DNA of 52,506 bases from a virus. Both the position numbers and the translations under genes were made by a program. The DNA is taken from positions 1 through 52,506 of the IMG/VR virus record IMGVR_UViG_3300047168_000032. One strand, given 5' to 3'. The notes under the pieces were generated by a model. It was given only the letters and a program-made list of their open reading frames with translations, was not told the origin of the DNA and did no database searches. Positions 17,269-46,583 of the stretch are shown here, in pieces (positions within the stretch are counted from its first letter, which is position 1; the number at the start of each line of letters is the position of its first letter).

Positions 17269-18515
17269 TTAAGCGCTTAATTGTACTACGCAATTCCAAC
17301 CTGGGGCTGAGCACACTAAATTTCCATAGTATGCGATGCGAATTTCTAAGGCGTCAGCATTTCCAACTCGTAATCCCTCTAACCCTTCCATTCCGTAGGT
17401 CAAAATGTGCGGTATTTTACCTAAGGAGCGAAGTTTCCAGGTGCTCATCGTTAAGATATAAGCAGTCTGTGGAGGGCAAGAGCGGTCAGCAAGTACCGTG
17501 ATACGTCCGTATGCCGATTGGAAGGTGATACCTTGGAAGGCAACTTCAACTTCGTCATGGTCTACTTGAACATATTGAACTTTAGCTCCTAAGCTGTTTA
17601 CAAGAGCAGCATAAGATGCAAAGTCCATGATACAGAGATCTGGTCGTCCACCTTCACGGTTGATGAATGCAAGGGCGTTTGTAATCCCTTCTTCAATCGT
17701 GTAGTTCTGAGCATTGTAGCGTAACCCAGCCAAACGAGTTGGGTCTTGGCTTCTGTTAACTCCCCAGAAATTGTCGTTAGCAGCAGGACTTGCTATTGGA
17801 ATCCAAGCAGCTAGTCCTGACAATGCTAAAGCCGATCCAGTGCTCACTGTTCCTAGAACGATATCACCATTGACTCCCAGGGCGTTTCCAGCAGCTGCCC
17901 ATGAGGAATCAGCACCGCCACTTGAAGTGAGGATAGTAACGATACCGTTGGCACGGTCAACTTTCTGGACAAATCCAGTTGTAGCACTGATATTAGAAAT
18001 AACCCCACCAGCGTACACGTAGTTGATCAGCGTCATTCCTGGTTCGAAGTTAACAATTTGTTGAACGTTCTGTAACACGATAGCGTATACACCAACGGAT
18101 GGGCTAGATGCTGATGCGATGAAACCACGTGTTCCCGAACCGTCTCCGAACAATTCAAATGCGATATTGTTGGTCAAAGTTCTGAATCCACCGTCGAGCT
18201 GTAATTTAGCTTCATCGACGAAAGCTCCGGCATTTGACTTAGTCTGTTCCATCAACAAGTTGGTGATCGTGACTAATTGGTAGTCCTGAACCACATACAC
18301 GAAGAAAGACGCTAAGTTAGTAGGAGTCTGTTGACTCTGAGCAAGAGCGAACGTATGGTCACGCCCTTGGGGTGCTCCGAATTCGATTGGGACTGGTATA
18401 TACTTACCAGCAAAGCCGTCCGGAGACTCATTCTTAGGCACTAAAGCAAAGAAAGGATTCTCTTTATAAACGACATCCTTCATATATTCATTTGAATCTG
18501 TGTAAAGCTCTTTTA
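17269..18515 (-). CDS. Major capsid protein, exon 2
   Basis: This exon gives 414 residues plus a split Leu codon. Spliced to exon 1 (19195-19153) the protein is 429 residues: MAAIYANPQNQVAA-L-KELYTDSNEY then MKDVVYKENPFFALVPKNES, PVPIEFGAPQGRDHTFALAQ. The KDVVYKENPF-ALVPK start and the later NDNFWGVNRSQDPTRLAG, TIEEGITNALAFINREGGRP, LCIMDFASYAAL and VEVAFQGITF are typical of HK97-fold capsid proteins of this type. The upstream in-frame stop (TAA) shows that translation cannot simply extend from 18483, while the spliced frame is open. Followed by a strong terminator. This is probably the most highly made protein of the virus. Confidence 0.85.
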
Positions 18516-34130: not shown

Positions 34131-34159
34131 AGATTACCACAACTAAAATTTTAAGTCAA
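34131..34159 (-). promoter_or_regulatory. Sigma70-type promoter, extended -10
   Basis: TTGACT, 17-nt spacer ending TGTGG, TAATCT on the minus strand, 7 nt before ATG 34124, so the leader would be very short. Confidence 0.65.
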
Positions 34160-34578
34160 GACTTTTTGTACCCTTTGATAGATTCTTTTTCTTGAAGTGT
34201 GTACCATTTGCCTAACGGAATGCCTAGTATGCGTGCAATAATTCTGCCTAAATTCCAAGCTAACTTTTCTGACTTCACCACTAATTTTATCTCATTTTTA
34301 GATACTTTGTACTTGTAAATTTTTGAATAAGCCAATTCTGTGTTTATGTTCCTAGGCATGAACAAAAAGTCGATTACGTGACCGAGTTCATGAATTAAAG
34401 ATGCCACTTCTTCTGTCTGGGATAAATCAGGGCTTATTCTTATTAGGTTACGAGAAGGTACGTAAACACCGTCTTCATCGCCTTCGTATACTATCTTGAT
34501 TCCTAACATATAAGCAAATTTATGTAAAGAATTTACATACCTGGTATAGTGCTTAAGCTCATCTCTGTACATGTTCAT
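34156..34578 (-). CDS. Zinc metallopeptidase-like protein (HELGH)
   Basis: 140 residues. YVPSRNLIRISPDLSQTEEV, then SLIHELGHVIDFLFMP contains the HExxH-type zinc site (HELGH), and further on KSEKLAWNLGRIIARILGIP gives a candidate third ligand (Glu in EKLAW, as in ImmA/IrrE-like enzymes). Its stop is 34156 and its ATG overlaps the transglycosylase stop (34575-34578). A phage peptidase that may cleave a host regulator. Catalytic residues are present; substrate unknown. Confidence 0.75.
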   Translation of the reverse strand: MNMYRDELKHYTRYVNSLHKFAYMLGIKIVYEGDEDGVYVPSRNLIRISPDLSQTEEVASLIHELGHVIDFLFMPRNINTELAYSKIYKYKVSKNEIKLVVKSEKLAWNLGRIIARILGIPLGKWYTLQEKESIKGYKKS

Positions 34579-41876: not shown

Positions 41877-41905
41877 AAATTAACACAGCTCACTTAAAAA
41901 GTCAA
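41877..41905 (-). promoter_or_regulatory. Sigma70-type promoter, extended -10
   Basis: TTGACT, 17-nt spacer ending TGTGT, TAATTT on the minus strand, 22 nt before ATG 41855, overlapping the end of the 41894 gene. Confidence 0.6.
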
Positions 41906-42376
41906 ACCTAGGCTTAAACCACAGGTTCCATTAGCAATCCCAAATAACCCAACAGTGATTGGTCCAAAAATAGGTTTCGTCACTGACAATCCGTAACTTA
42001 TACCATTCGGGCTGCTTGCATTTGTTGCAAATAGTGCTGAAATCGTCACCTTAGAACTGCCTCGAACTATTTCTTTATCCACCGTGGTTAGTTTGTTGTC
42101 TGATAAAGTGTCATTCGTCTTCTTTTCTGTGTTTACACCAGTATCTTCAGTAATCGTGGTAGTTACTTCCTTTTTTCCATCTGTTTCCGTGACTGCAACT
42201 ATTTTAGTTTCCTTGTGCCTGTTTATCTCTTTCTTGGTGTCATCTCTATCAACCACTTTTTCAGCCTCAGCAACCTTAGTGACAATTTTTGTCTTCTCTG
42301 GTACCAGGTAGGCTCCCAGAGCTAAACAGGCAGCTGTATACACTACCCCGATTATTACTTTAATTCTTAGTGTCAT
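41894..42376 (-). CDS. Membrane-anchored protein with beta-type C-terminus (spanin-like candidate)
   Basis: 160 residues. Transmembrane helix at about 5-25 (VIIGVVYTAACLALGAYLV), charged repeats (VTKVAEAEKVVDRDDTKKE; TETDGKKEVTTTITEDTG), then short strands ISYGLSVTKPIFGPITVGLF and GTCGLSLGLTF with a final Phe like an outer-membrane beta signal. This layout (TM, EVTTT linker, beta hairpins, G-L-x-x) is common in phage membrane proteins of unknown function. It could bridge inner and outer membrane. Overlaps the 42373-42609 gene by ATGA. Confidence 0.6.
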   Translation of the reverse strand: MTLRIKVIIGVVYTAACLALGAYLVPEKTKIVTKVAEAEKVVDRDDTKKEINRHKETKIVAVTETDGKKEVTTTITEDTGVNTEKKTNDTLSDNKLTTVDKEIVRGSSKVTISALFATNASSPNGISYGLSVTKPIFGPITVGLFGIANGTCGLSLGLTF

Positions 42377-42609
42377 AACTTATCCTCTTGATTCTTAACT
42401 TTAATAAAGCCGTGGGTACCTAACACTGGGGTTAATAAACTTATATACACCATAGCATCGAGTTTAGAAAATGTGATTATTTGTCCAAGTATATGAAATG
42501 TTAGCCCATCTACAAGAAATCTAAAAACTACCGCTAAGGTGACAATCACCGTTAGAGTCACCATCTCATCAGGTTTGCCTGTTTTAGGATCATTTAAAAA
42601 TAGCTGCAT
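42373..42609 (-). CDS. Small two-helix membrane protein (holin-like)
   Basis: 78 residues: MQLFLNDPKTGKPDEMVTLT, VIVTLAVVFRFLVDGLTFHI then MVYISLLTPVLGTHGFIKVK. Two transmembrane helices; the YISLLTPVLG motif recalls small holin-like proteins paired with the spanin-like gene in other phages. The role is not proven. Confidence 0.6.
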   Translation of the reverse strand: MQLFLNDPKTGKPDEMVTLTVIVTLAVVFRFLVDGLTFHILGQIITFSKLDAMVYISLLTPVLGTHGFIKVKNQEDKL

Positions 42610-43617: not shown

Positions 43618-43713
43618 GAGAGGGAGATAGAATTTATGAATAAGATAGAACCAGGTTTAGACACATTCTTTTTACTAACGTTGTTACTTTGTTTACTTGT
43701 TAAGGCAGCAACT
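43618..43713 (+). repeat. Tandem duplication, copy 1
   Basis: Copy 1 and copy 2 (43735-43830) lie 117 bp apart. The leader AGAGGGAGATAGAATTTATG and the 3' block TTACTTTGTTTACTTGTTAA are identical, the middle has diverged. Each copy encodes one membrane peptide. Confidence 0.8.
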
Positions 43714-43725
43714 TTTATATTTTAG
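43636..43725 (+). CDS. 29-residue membrane peptide, duplicate copy 1
   Basis: MNKIEPGLDTFFLLTLLLCL then LVKAATFIF: a charged start, one hydrophobic helix (LLTLLLCLLV) and a short tail. Ribosome site GAGGGAG. It shares LLLCLLVKAAT with the next ORF. First gene of the plus-strand operon; a holin or toxin-like role is possible, unproven. Confidence 0.55.
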   Translation: MNKIEPGLDTFFLLTLLLCLLVKAATFIF

Positions 43726-43734
43726 TGGTACAAT

Positions 43735-43830
43735 AAGAGGGAGATAGAATTTATGACTAGGATAGAAGCAGGTTACATGTACTTTTTAGTAATGTTATTA
43801 CTTTGTTTACTTGTTAAGGCAGCAACTTTA
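43735..43830 (+). repeat. Tandem duplication, copy 2
   Basis: Second copy of the 117-bp unit; see copy 1 at 43618-43713. Confidence 0.8.
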
Positions 43831-43854
43831 TATTTTAATGGTTATTTACAATAA
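43753..43854 (+). CDS. 33-residue membrane peptide, duplicate copy 2
   Basis: MTRIEAGYMYFLVMLLLCLL then VKAATLYFNGYLQ. The same plan as copy 1 with the conserved core LLLCLLVKAAT and start M-x-x-IE-x-G; ribosome site GAGGGAG. Both frames kept open and the start/stop preserved although the sequence drifted, which favours function for both. Confidence 0.55.
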   Translation: MTRIEAGYMYFLVMLLLCLLVKAATLYFNGYLQ

Positions 43855-44070: not shown

Positions 44071-45006
44071 ATGGAAAAAAACAATAGAGTTTTAAAACCA
44101 ATTACAAGGCTACTGTACGGCTTTTTGATGGCAGCAGGCCTATTGACTGTGGTAGTGGTATTTGAGCTTGTGGTAAGGCTGTTATTGCCTGTAAAGGGGT
44201 ACTCGCCGGACTCTTCCGTGATGGTAACTAACCTGGCAAAAAATTCAGGTGGTAGTGGGGCTATTATCGAGACTGCCGACGATTTTACAAAGGTACTCAC
44301 TAATGCCCATGTTTGTAGAGTAGTAGAACATGGCGGTGTCGTGTCCTCAATTCACAACACCGGATATGTACTATCTTATAAAAAATCAAGTTTACACGAT
44401 CTATGTGTGATAAAAGTATCCAACAACTTAGGAACTTCAGCGACTATATCAAATACCTACCCACAAGTCTTAGACGATGCTACTGTTATAGGTCATCCTA
44501 TGCTGATGCCTATAATCTTGACTTCTGGTAAATTCTCAGAAAAACGACTCATCCATGTAGGTACTGGGTTAAGGGCTTGTACACCTGAAGAATTAACCGA
44601 TCCTGTTTTAGGGAGCATATGTGCTTTTTTTGGAGGTGTACCTGTGATTCAAGCCTATGAAGCACAAGCCATATCAGCTCTTATTCAACCTGGATCATCA
44701 GGGTCACCTGTGTTTGATGTTAATAAAAGCATAGCTGGAGTAGTTTTTGCTGGTAGTGGAGAAATGGCTTTTGGTTACATCGTCCCTCTTGAGTATATTC
44801 ATATGTTTTTAGACAATGAAATTAAAACAGTTGAAGAACAAAAACCTAATACTGACAGTTTATTCCAGACTTCATCAGGAAGTACTGTCGATAAAGATGA
44901 AGTTAAAAAACGTTGTCAAACGATTAACTTAAATGAAAAACAAAAACAGGCATGTAAAGAAGTGTTGGAACTGCTTAAATCAGATGACCTAATCTACTCG
45001 AAATAG
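44071..45006 (+). CDS. Membrane-anchored trypsin-like serine protease
   Basis: 311 residues. Cytoplasmic start (EKNNRVLKPITR), transmembrane helix at about 14-40 (LLYGFLMAAGLLTVVVVFEL), then a chymotrypsin-fold domain outside the inner membrane. The triad is visible: TNAHVC (His80), LHDLCVIKV (Asp110), PGSSGSPVFD (Ser210). Six Cys (82, 112, 170, 184 and two near the end) may pair. The C-terminal part (KKRCQTINLNEKQKQACKEV) is helical. Similar to HtrA/DegS catalytic domains but without a PDZ domain. Likely acts in the periplasm on host envelope proteins or phage precursors. Rare in phages. Confidence 0.85.
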   Translation: MEKNNRVLKPITRLLYGFLMAAGLLTVVVVFELVVRLLLPVKGYSPDSSVMVTNLAKNSGGSGAIIETADDFTKVLTNAHVCRVVEHGGVVSSIHNTGYVLSYKKSSLHDLCVIKVSNNLGTSATISNTYPQVLDDATVIGHPMLMPIILTSGKFSEKRLIHVGTGLRACTPEELTDPVLGSICAFFGGVPVIQAYEAQAISALIQPGSSGSPVFDVNKSIAGVVFAGSGEMAFGYIVPLEYIHMFLDNEIKTVEEQKPNTDSLFQTSSGSTVDKDEVKKRCQTINLNEKQKQACKEVLELLKSDDLIYSK

Positions 45007-45023: not shown

Positions 45024-45053
45024 AGGGGCCAGGGAATGGCCCCTCCTTTGGCT
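45024..45053 (+). terminator. Intrinsic terminator after the protease gene
   Basis: AGGGGCCA and TGGCCCCT form a perfect 8-bp GC-rich stem with a GGGAA loop, followed by CCTTTGGCTTT. The T-run is imperfect, so read-through into the lysis genes is likely. Confidence 0.6.
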
Positions 45054-45067
45054 TTATGGGAGTATAT

Positions 45068-45496
45068 ATGAAAGCATTAAGTAATTGTGATTACTACGAG
45101 TTAGATAAGATAGCAAGTTTTATAGGAAATTATTGTTCCAAGTGGGGCAGAATAAACACTCAATGCAAAGAAAAATACGGCATCGTTATAGTAGACACTG
45201 TGTTTACAGAACTGAGTTTACATTCGCTGATCTACCCTAACTTACATTACTATGCCTTTCCTAACTGGTTGATATATTTAGATATAAAAGTGTTCACTCC
45301 TGTAATCACGTTTTTATTAGGATTTATCATGCATAAATGGCGGCGTTTCGTATACAGCAGGGCTTATCATATCGCTTTAAGACACTGGCCTCAATACACA
45401 AAGGAAATTCTTATGTTTGCTGATTATCCTGAATTTATTAAAAACTATGAATATATTAAGTTTAACAGTGAATGGAGAAATTATGGAATTGAGTAA
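45068..45496 (+). CDS. Hypothetical membrane protein upstream of the endolysin
   Basis: 142 residues from ATG 45068 (GGGAG ahead; the ATG at 45056 has no site). MKALSNCDYYELDKIASFIG, then a hydrophobic helix LDIKVFTPVITFLLGFIMHK around 75-95 and a basic-aromatic C-terminus (KWRRFVYSRAYHIALRHWPQ). Overlaps the endolysin start by 14 nt. It could be the holin or a regulator of lysis, but its size and single helix are not decisive. Confidence 0.55.
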   Translation: MKALSNCDYYELDKIASFIGNYCSKWGRINTQCKEKYGIVIVDTVFTELSLHSLIYPNLHYYAFPNWLIYLDIKVFTPVITFLLGFIMHKWRRFVYSRAYHIALRHWPQYTKEILMFADYPEFIKNYEYIKFNSEWRNYGIE

Positions 45497-45935
45497 CGAA
45501 GGTATTGAACTTATTAAGAAATTTGAAGGGTGCAGGCTGCAAGTGTACCTAGATGTGGGAGGGCTGCCTACAGTAGGATACGGTCACCGAACAGATATGT
45601 TAGAAGGTGAGACCATAACCCAAGAAATGGCAGACACCCTGCTGATGACAGATTTGATGAGTTTTTCTAATGGAACTAAGACGCTACTAGGTCCTGCCAT
45701 AATCTGCAATGACAACCAATTTTCATCCTTGGTATGCTTTGCATATAACTTAGGGTTAGGAACGTTGCAAAATTCAACACTGCTTAAGAAAGTTAAAGAA
45801 GGTGACTACGAAGGCGCATCCCGCGAGTTTTTAAAGTGGGTACACGTTGGACCTCATATTGTACCGGGGTTGGTAGCCAGAAGGCAAGCTGAGAAGGAAT
45901 TGTTTGAAAAACCTGTAACTGAGGAGATCACGTGA
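45483..45935 (+). CDS. Endolysin, GH24 lysozyme
   Basis: 150 residues from ATG 45483 (GGAGA ahead; the ATG at 45417 belongs to the overlap). MELSNEGIELIKKFEGCRLQ, YLDVGGLPTVGYGHRTD contains the T4/P22-type catalytic Glu (KFEG), Asp (LDVG) and Thr (PTVGYGH). QFSSLVCFAYNLGLGTLQNS and GLVARRQAEKELF complete the fold. No signal peptide or SAR segment, so it needs a holin to reach peptidoglycan. Confidence 0.92.
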   Translation: MELSNEGIELIKKFEGCRLQVYLDVGGLPTVGYGHRTDMLEGETITQEMADTLLMTDLMSFSNGTKTLLGPAIICNDNQFSSLVCFAYNLGLGTLQNSTLLKKVKEGDYEGASREFLKWVHVGPHIVPGLVARRQAEKELFEKPVTEEIT

Positions 45936-46346: not shown

Positions 46347-46583
46347 TTATTTCAAATAATGAACAACAGTCTCGCAAGCAGCAACTATTGAAATGATGAT
46401 CATGAGGAGCTTAACAGCACCCATTTGACGATTAATGAACTCCTCTGATTTTTCTACCTTTTTTTCTAATAAATCAGTTCTACGAATATGTTCTTTTAAT
46501 TCGACAGCTTGCTCTCCTAGAGTCTTGTCTATTGATGCTATCCGATCTGTAATTCTATCTATCTTATCTTCAAATCTATTCAT
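46347..46583 (-). CDS. Coiled-coil membrane protein (XhlA-like)
   Basis: 78 residues: MNRFEDKIDRITDRIASIDK, TLGEQAVELKEHIRRTDLLE then KLLMIIISIVAACETVVHYL. Long heptad-repeat helix followed by a C-terminal transmembrane segment, the layout of haemolysin XhlA-like phage proteins, which often lie next to lysis genes. Last gene of the fibre transcript. Confidence 0.65.
   Translation of the reverse strand: MNRFEDKIDRITDRIASIDKTLGEQAVELKEHIRRTDLLEKKVEKSEEFINRQMGAVKLLMIIISIVAACETVVHYLK

Follow-up and report, generated by a model that had tools for sequence, protein, structure and literature searches.

The window, by which we mean the whole stretch of DNA analysed, is a virus record of 52.5 kb (52,506 nucleotides) with a terminase, portal, capsid, family A DNA polymerase, helicase, SbcCD and a UvsX/RecA-like gene, these core genes lying mostly on the minus strand. 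A plus-strand cluster contains the gene of a membrane-anchored serine protease, preceded by a 54 aa ORF and two duplicated transmembrane (TM) peptides; the second gene after it, also on the plus strand and separated from it by a gap of 477 bp, encodes an endolysin. The features of the locus are as follows.

43636..43725, plus strand: 29 aa single-TM peptide, first copy of the duplicated pair (direct repeats D1/D2)
43753..43854, plus strand: 33 aa single-TM peptide, second copy of the duplicated pair (direct repeats D1/D2)
44071..45006, plus strand: membrane-anchored HtrA-fold (trypsin-like) serine protease, 311 aa (PF13365, structural model, fold search)
44104..44184, plus strand: N-terminal transmembrane anchor of the protease, residues ~12-38 (hydropathy 2.6 over 17 residues)
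44197..44838, plus strand: HtrA/chymotrypsin-fold protease domain, residues 43-256 (VIA-align range)
44578..44622, plus strand: helical insert Cys170-Cys184, 5' of the catalytic-serine codon (model helices 172-176 and 178-187)
44893..44979, plus strand: C-terminal helical hairpin with Cys282 and Cys295, where a PDZ domain would be (model helices 275-282 and 289-308)
45024..45044, plus strand: weak terminator-like hairpin 3' of the protease gene (fold z -1.1)
45068..45496, plus strand: 142 aa protein with a hydrophobic segment, overlapping the endolysin start (no Pfam match)
45483..45935, plus strand: GH24 phage lysozyme, the endolysin (PF00959, E 1.9e-37; phrog_7, E 1.4e-47)
46347..46583, minus strand: 78 aa protein with a coiled coil and a C-terminal TM segment, an XhlA-like holin candidate (weak match to phrog_937 'hemolysin', E 0.024)

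The leaders of the tandem TM peptides of about 30 aa are near-identical, and the pair lies just 5' of the protease cluster. The protease ORF begins with ATG, with AGAGG 5' of it, and coincides exactly with the membrane-anchored trypsin-like protease of the original prediction, carrying both the N-terminal TM helix and a Trypsin_2 domain (PF13365, clan PA, S1-like; E 1.8e-11) over residues 61-224. The Pfam profile is covered in full (1-144/144), at 45.4 bits against a curated cut-off of 27.6. Relatives were reached by way of RecA-linked relatives, which led to a homolog in contig L005 (E 4e-62) and from there to a profile search of IMG/VR contigs; this gave 33 distinct family members in uncultured viral contigs, window included. 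All 28 members that were aligned match PF13365, and in all of them the catalytic residues are invariant: His80 in TNAHVC (codon 44308-44310), Asp110 in HDLCV (44398-44400) and Ser210 in PGSSGSP (44698-44700), so that the complete His-Asp-Ser triad predicted with these three motifs is in place. The protease family is under purifying selection, with a dN/dS of ~0.07 for L005 versus L018, the single close pair tested. The ORF is a real gene and did not arise by chance, since it matches a full Pfam profile, belongs to a family of 33 distinct members, keeps its triad in 28/28 members and shows a dN/dS of 0.07. Judged by these sequence features, the window protease is probably enzymatically active.

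An AlphaFold model built from the 28-member alignment reached a pLDDT of 85.8 and superseded an earlier model from five sequences (pLDDT 64). Foldseek and VIA-align placed residues 43-256 among HtrA proteases, with VIA-align Z scores of 23.8 for Deg1 (3qo6; rmsd 2.2 Å over 184 residues), 23.0 for DegP, 22.9 for DegQ, 22.2 for DegS and 21.7 for MarP (3k6y). The structural comparison with DegS/HtrA that had been proposed as a check, and that might have returned another fold or a displaced triad, thus found a chymotrypsin fold, and the triad residues are in place in the alignment. The protease domain has just ~55 residues C-terminal to it, and Pfam finds no PDZ domain in the window protein or in any of the 28 aligned members. 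The order of structural elements suggests that the Cys170-Cys184 insert sits where the HtrA L3 regulatory loop would be. This insert is probably closed by a disulfide: Cys184 is invariant, as are Cys82 and Cys112 (28/28 each), and Cys170 is kept in 27/28 members, while the C-terminal pair Cys282 and Cys295 is retained in 24/28 and 25/28, respectively.

The model contains a single N-terminal helix (residues 9-38), which is the only TM helix of the protein. It is flanked by four Lys/Arg residues before and one after, a distribution that implies an N-in/C-out topology, which would expose the protease domain to the periplasm. Every complete family member has a membrane anchor, a lipobox in ~10 of the 33 and a TM helix in the remainder, and lipobox members carry exactly one cysteine more than TM members. 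On the protease tree the anchor type switches at least three times as forced by supported branches, and five times by parsimony, while the protease domain stays conserved. A swapped anchor type, a tether that is always kept and even cysteine numbers are best explained by an enzyme of the envelope; the protease is probably exported, membrane-tethered and envelope-facing, with a predicted periplasmic location. We hold its identity and location as a tethered envelope protease with high confidence. Since TM and lipoprotein forms coexist, the substrate would more likely be accessible from either of the two membranes than be a single partner in the inner membrane.

Comparison with named systems indicates a previously undescribed family that is a variant of the tethered HtrA/MarP kind; the open-access literature holds no description of it or of the subtilase pairing considered below. 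With the HtrA family (DegS, DegP/DegQ and plant Deg1) it has in common the fold (Z 22-24, rmsd 2.2-2.6 Å over ~180 residues), the His-Asp-Ser triad and the envelope-facing disposition, and with DegS also the N-terminal anchor. It differs in lacking a PDZ domain, in having GSSGS in place of GNSGG at the catalytic serine, in its cysteine-closed helical insert and cysteine-paired C-terminal hairpin, and in a sequence identity of only ~20%. The NCBIfam models for HtrA/Deg score below their cut-offs (TIGR02037, 18.0 bits vs 416; NF041521, 24.4 vs 450), and the DegS model (TIGR02038) gives no match to the window protease. The best NCBIfam match is mycobacterial MarP (Rv3671c; NF033740), at 46.8 bits likewise below its equivalog cut-off of 250. 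MarP, too, lacks PDZ and is a chymotrypsin-fold protease anchored in the membrane and located in the periplasm, but it has four TM helices, whereas the phage family has one TM helix or a lipobox, and its cysteine pattern differs as well. On the structural model, the phage enzyme is expected to function like a tethered protease of the HtrA/MarP type, yet it falls outside those named families. Staphylococcal Spl/V8-type proteases give the best PDB sequence match of the family profile near the catalytic serine (2as9, E 2.1e-8), but they are secreted, unanchored and non-viral, and the likeness lies mainly in the GxSGSP region. Among phage proteins, the 'HtrA' of Rhizobium phage AF3 (A0A7G7WW26) also has a trypsin/HtrA fold but shares only 15% identity; phrog_9683 and phrog_11383 have this fold too, with matches that extend over only ~50 residues near the serine, and no PHROG covers the whole window protease.

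Phages that carry the family range in size from about 50 to 175 kb. A tblastn search of 50,697 phage records with the protease gave nothing at E 0.01, only serine-motif matches at E up to 10; the plasmid search returned weak generic trypsins only; and 84,980 GTDB genomes yielded short motif matches and no convincing member. As the GTDB scan consisted of two exact-peptide patterns, the family can be called virus-specific only provisionally, and it is so far apparently confined to uncultured phages. Rhizobium phage RHEph10, for which a trypsin-like gene has been reported, has none annotated in the 100 kb viewed. Two sets of candidates were rejected: L050-L052 turned out to be staphylococcal Spl proteases, and the PADLOC matches to LmuA and RT-Protease are weak and probably a mere reflection of the shared trypsin fold. 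The sole hint at a host is a short nrdA match between L068 and Myxococcus phage Mx1.

The original prediction also placed the gene in a plus-strand lysis operon, and this stands in part. The GH24 endolysin, in which no signal sequence was seen, is indeed encoded by the second gene after that of the protease and in the same orientation, but the weak hairpin at 45024-45044 is located between them and may separate the protease from it, and no holin or spanin was identified by homology in the plus-strand cluster. L005 and L044 encode proteins similar to the 78 aa XhlA-like candidate in the vicinity of the protease, the likeness otherwise being judged by eye. Elsewhere in the window, a minus-strand gene (41894-42376) encodes a 160 aa protein with an N-terminal TM segment, a coiled coil and a C-terminal Phe like that of a last outer-membrane beta strand, and it adjoins a two-TM holin-like protein (42373-42609, minus strand); the two are a possible spanin-like pair. 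Relatives of the 160 aa protein are found in L004, L005, L018, L023 and L040, in the last directly upstream of the protease.

Across the family, a GH24 lysozyme is present in 6/27 family-bearing records and, in five of these six, is no more than five genes away from the protease, the exception being L068, which carries a distant family member. An endolysin lies on the same strand as the protease at a distance of 44-156 bp in L005, L012, L021 and L036 (the gap to the lysozyme being 49 bp in L005, 44 in L021 and 156 in L036), and on the opposite strand at 488 bp in L040, a 160 kb phage unrelated to the window group, and at 1244 bp in L023. The endolysin-adjacent cases belong mainly to one phage group with shared synteny, recognised by shared tail-fibre-like genes, so they provide little independent support for a lysis link, and the endolysin-adjacency label changes three times on the protease tree. 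Most other lineages have no recognisable lysis gene near the protease, and membrane-protein neighbours within three genes show a borderline enrichment (p 0.054). The link to lysis genes is therefore real for the phage group of the window and is not general for the family.

We propose that the protease would be exported across the inner membrane and kept tethered there by its N-terminal helix, or by a lipoprotein anchor in relatives, and that it would fold in the oxidising envelope with three putative disulfides, two in the core and one at the C-terminus. Having an HtrA fold without PDZ, it should be free of peptide-gated PDZ control, and it would cut proteins of the infected cell that are exported or belong to the envelope. 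Precedents show what such activity can do: the wall hydrolase RipA is activated through cleavage by MarP, which is membrane-anchored and periplasmic (PMC6628586), and over-activated periplasmic DegP is toxic to E. coli through excessive degradation of newly made proteins (PMC7529758). In the window phage, where the protease is encoded just ahead of the endolysin, it would most likely weaken the envelope around lysis, possibly by cutting proteins that hold the wall and membranes together, or by setting free wall hydrolases of the host in the way that MarP acts on RipA; the substrate and the timing in this scheme are guesses. Envelope proteolysis that aids lysis in the window phage is our best overall explanation, and we give it roughly an even chance. 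Lysis as the specific role of the window protease is a more tentative assignment, which we lean against.

The strongest competing explanation is superinfection exclusion or receptor clipping, in which the protease would remove surface receptors or cleave incoming phage proteins in the envelope, so that the infected cell would be protected and progeny would be spared re-adsorption to debris. The membrane tether faces the envelope, as this role would need, and an interchangeable anchor is easier to reconcile with a broad target in the envelope than with a single inner-membrane partner. Many lineages, moreover, carry the protease beside genes that are often early: SbcC in L027 and L030, and ribonucleotide reductase and recombination genes in L041 and L026. 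Other neighbours include a GroEL in L043, terminase and portal in L042 and L045, and PD-(D/E)XK nucleases and Clp protease in further lineages; the GroEL-like chaperonin (L043:6145-7860) is directly upstream of the protease gene and overlaps it by 1 bp, and the L043 contig also has a subtilase, far from the protease. Exclusion sits poorly with the placement of the protease beside the endolysin in the window group, and no immunity or exclusion gene was recognised nearby; it seems to us rather improbable.

A regulatory or quality-control cut is less probable still: the protease would mimic DegS or MarP and hit an anti-sigma factor of the host's envelope-stress response or another single regulator, or trim the phage's own exported proteins. 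DegS, DegP, DegQ and MarP-type enzymes are indeed the nearest folds, DegS has the same layout of N-terminal anchor and protease, and MarP heads the NCBIfam matches; set against this are the absence of a PDZ domain, NCBIfam scores far under their cut-offs, and the existence of both TM and lipoprotein forms, which would be unexpected for one inner-membrane partner. We consider such a role unlikely.

The subtilase partner brings in a further possibility, namely counter-defence or an attack, not related to lysis, on some other envelope-exposed host protein by a two-protease module. PF00082 (Peptidase_S8 subtilase) was found in 13/27 family-bearing viral records, or 11/25 once the two found through the subtilase are left out, and in 0/8 control records, window included; subtilase matches occur in 28/50,697 isolated-phage records (tblastn), a contrast that is large although these frequencies come from methods of differing sensitivity. 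The subtilases are secreted, with Peptidase_S8 matches at E 2e-19 in L005 and 2.6e-11 in L041, and in two large uncultured phages the frames touch: subtilase and trypsin-fold frames overlap by 4 bp in L041 (7267-7959 and 7956-8834) and by 1 bp in L049 (7024-7821 and 7821-8675). The subtilase adjoins the protease in L060 (6986-8946) and L068 (6920-8695) and lies within ~5 kb of it in L005, L018 and L040, while the converse association is weak, most subtilase-bearing contigs having no Trypsin_2 match. The window phage itself has no subtilase, no defence target was identified and the PADLOC matches are weak, and counter-defence therefore appears very unlikely. A role as prohead (maturation) protease does not fit the TM anchor or the distance of ~26 kb to the capsid gene (match at 17269-18483).

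Several other proteases were observed in these phages. A different trypsin-like ORF, with the motif GDSGGG, is directly 5' of a subtilase-like ORF in L091-L093. RecA-related phages encode further trypsin-like proteases with N-terminal hydrophobic segments (L004:3660-4376 and L007:1171-1830), which have no relatives in the phage collection; the neighbours of the L004 protease cluster are homologous to the window's genes at 41.9-43.0 kb. A third protease class in these neighbourhoods would be formed by candidate HExxH metalloproteases, small and lipoprotein-like, that are encoded close to the trypsin gene (L026:7417-7869 and L032:9534-10016). The window has an HExxH protein of its own (34156-34578, minus strand; IHELGH), which lacks a signal sequence and is possibly ImmA/IrrE-like.

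The recurrence of the subtilase and of other secreted trypsin-like proteases suggests that envelope proteolysis is selected and that several folds supply it. Returning to envelope proteolysis as the preferred reading, it is intriguing to hypothesize that these phages carry a kit of a tethered six-cysteine HtrA-fold protease and, often, a secreted subtilase, which would dismantle or reprogram the host envelope and, in the window group, act as an extra lysis component beside the endolysin; this fuller version is a speculative possibility.

Phage lysis, as far as is known, relies on holins, wall hydrolases and spanins, and proteases are not among its agents. A family of tethered envelope proteases, often encoded beside an endolysin or with a subtilase, points to host-envelope proteolysis as an overlooked phage function, making the protease a candidate for a third (outer-envelope) lysis step, for the exclusion of rival phages or for the control of host envelope stress. 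It also indicates that phage dark matter holds protease families that are absent from collections of cultured phages.
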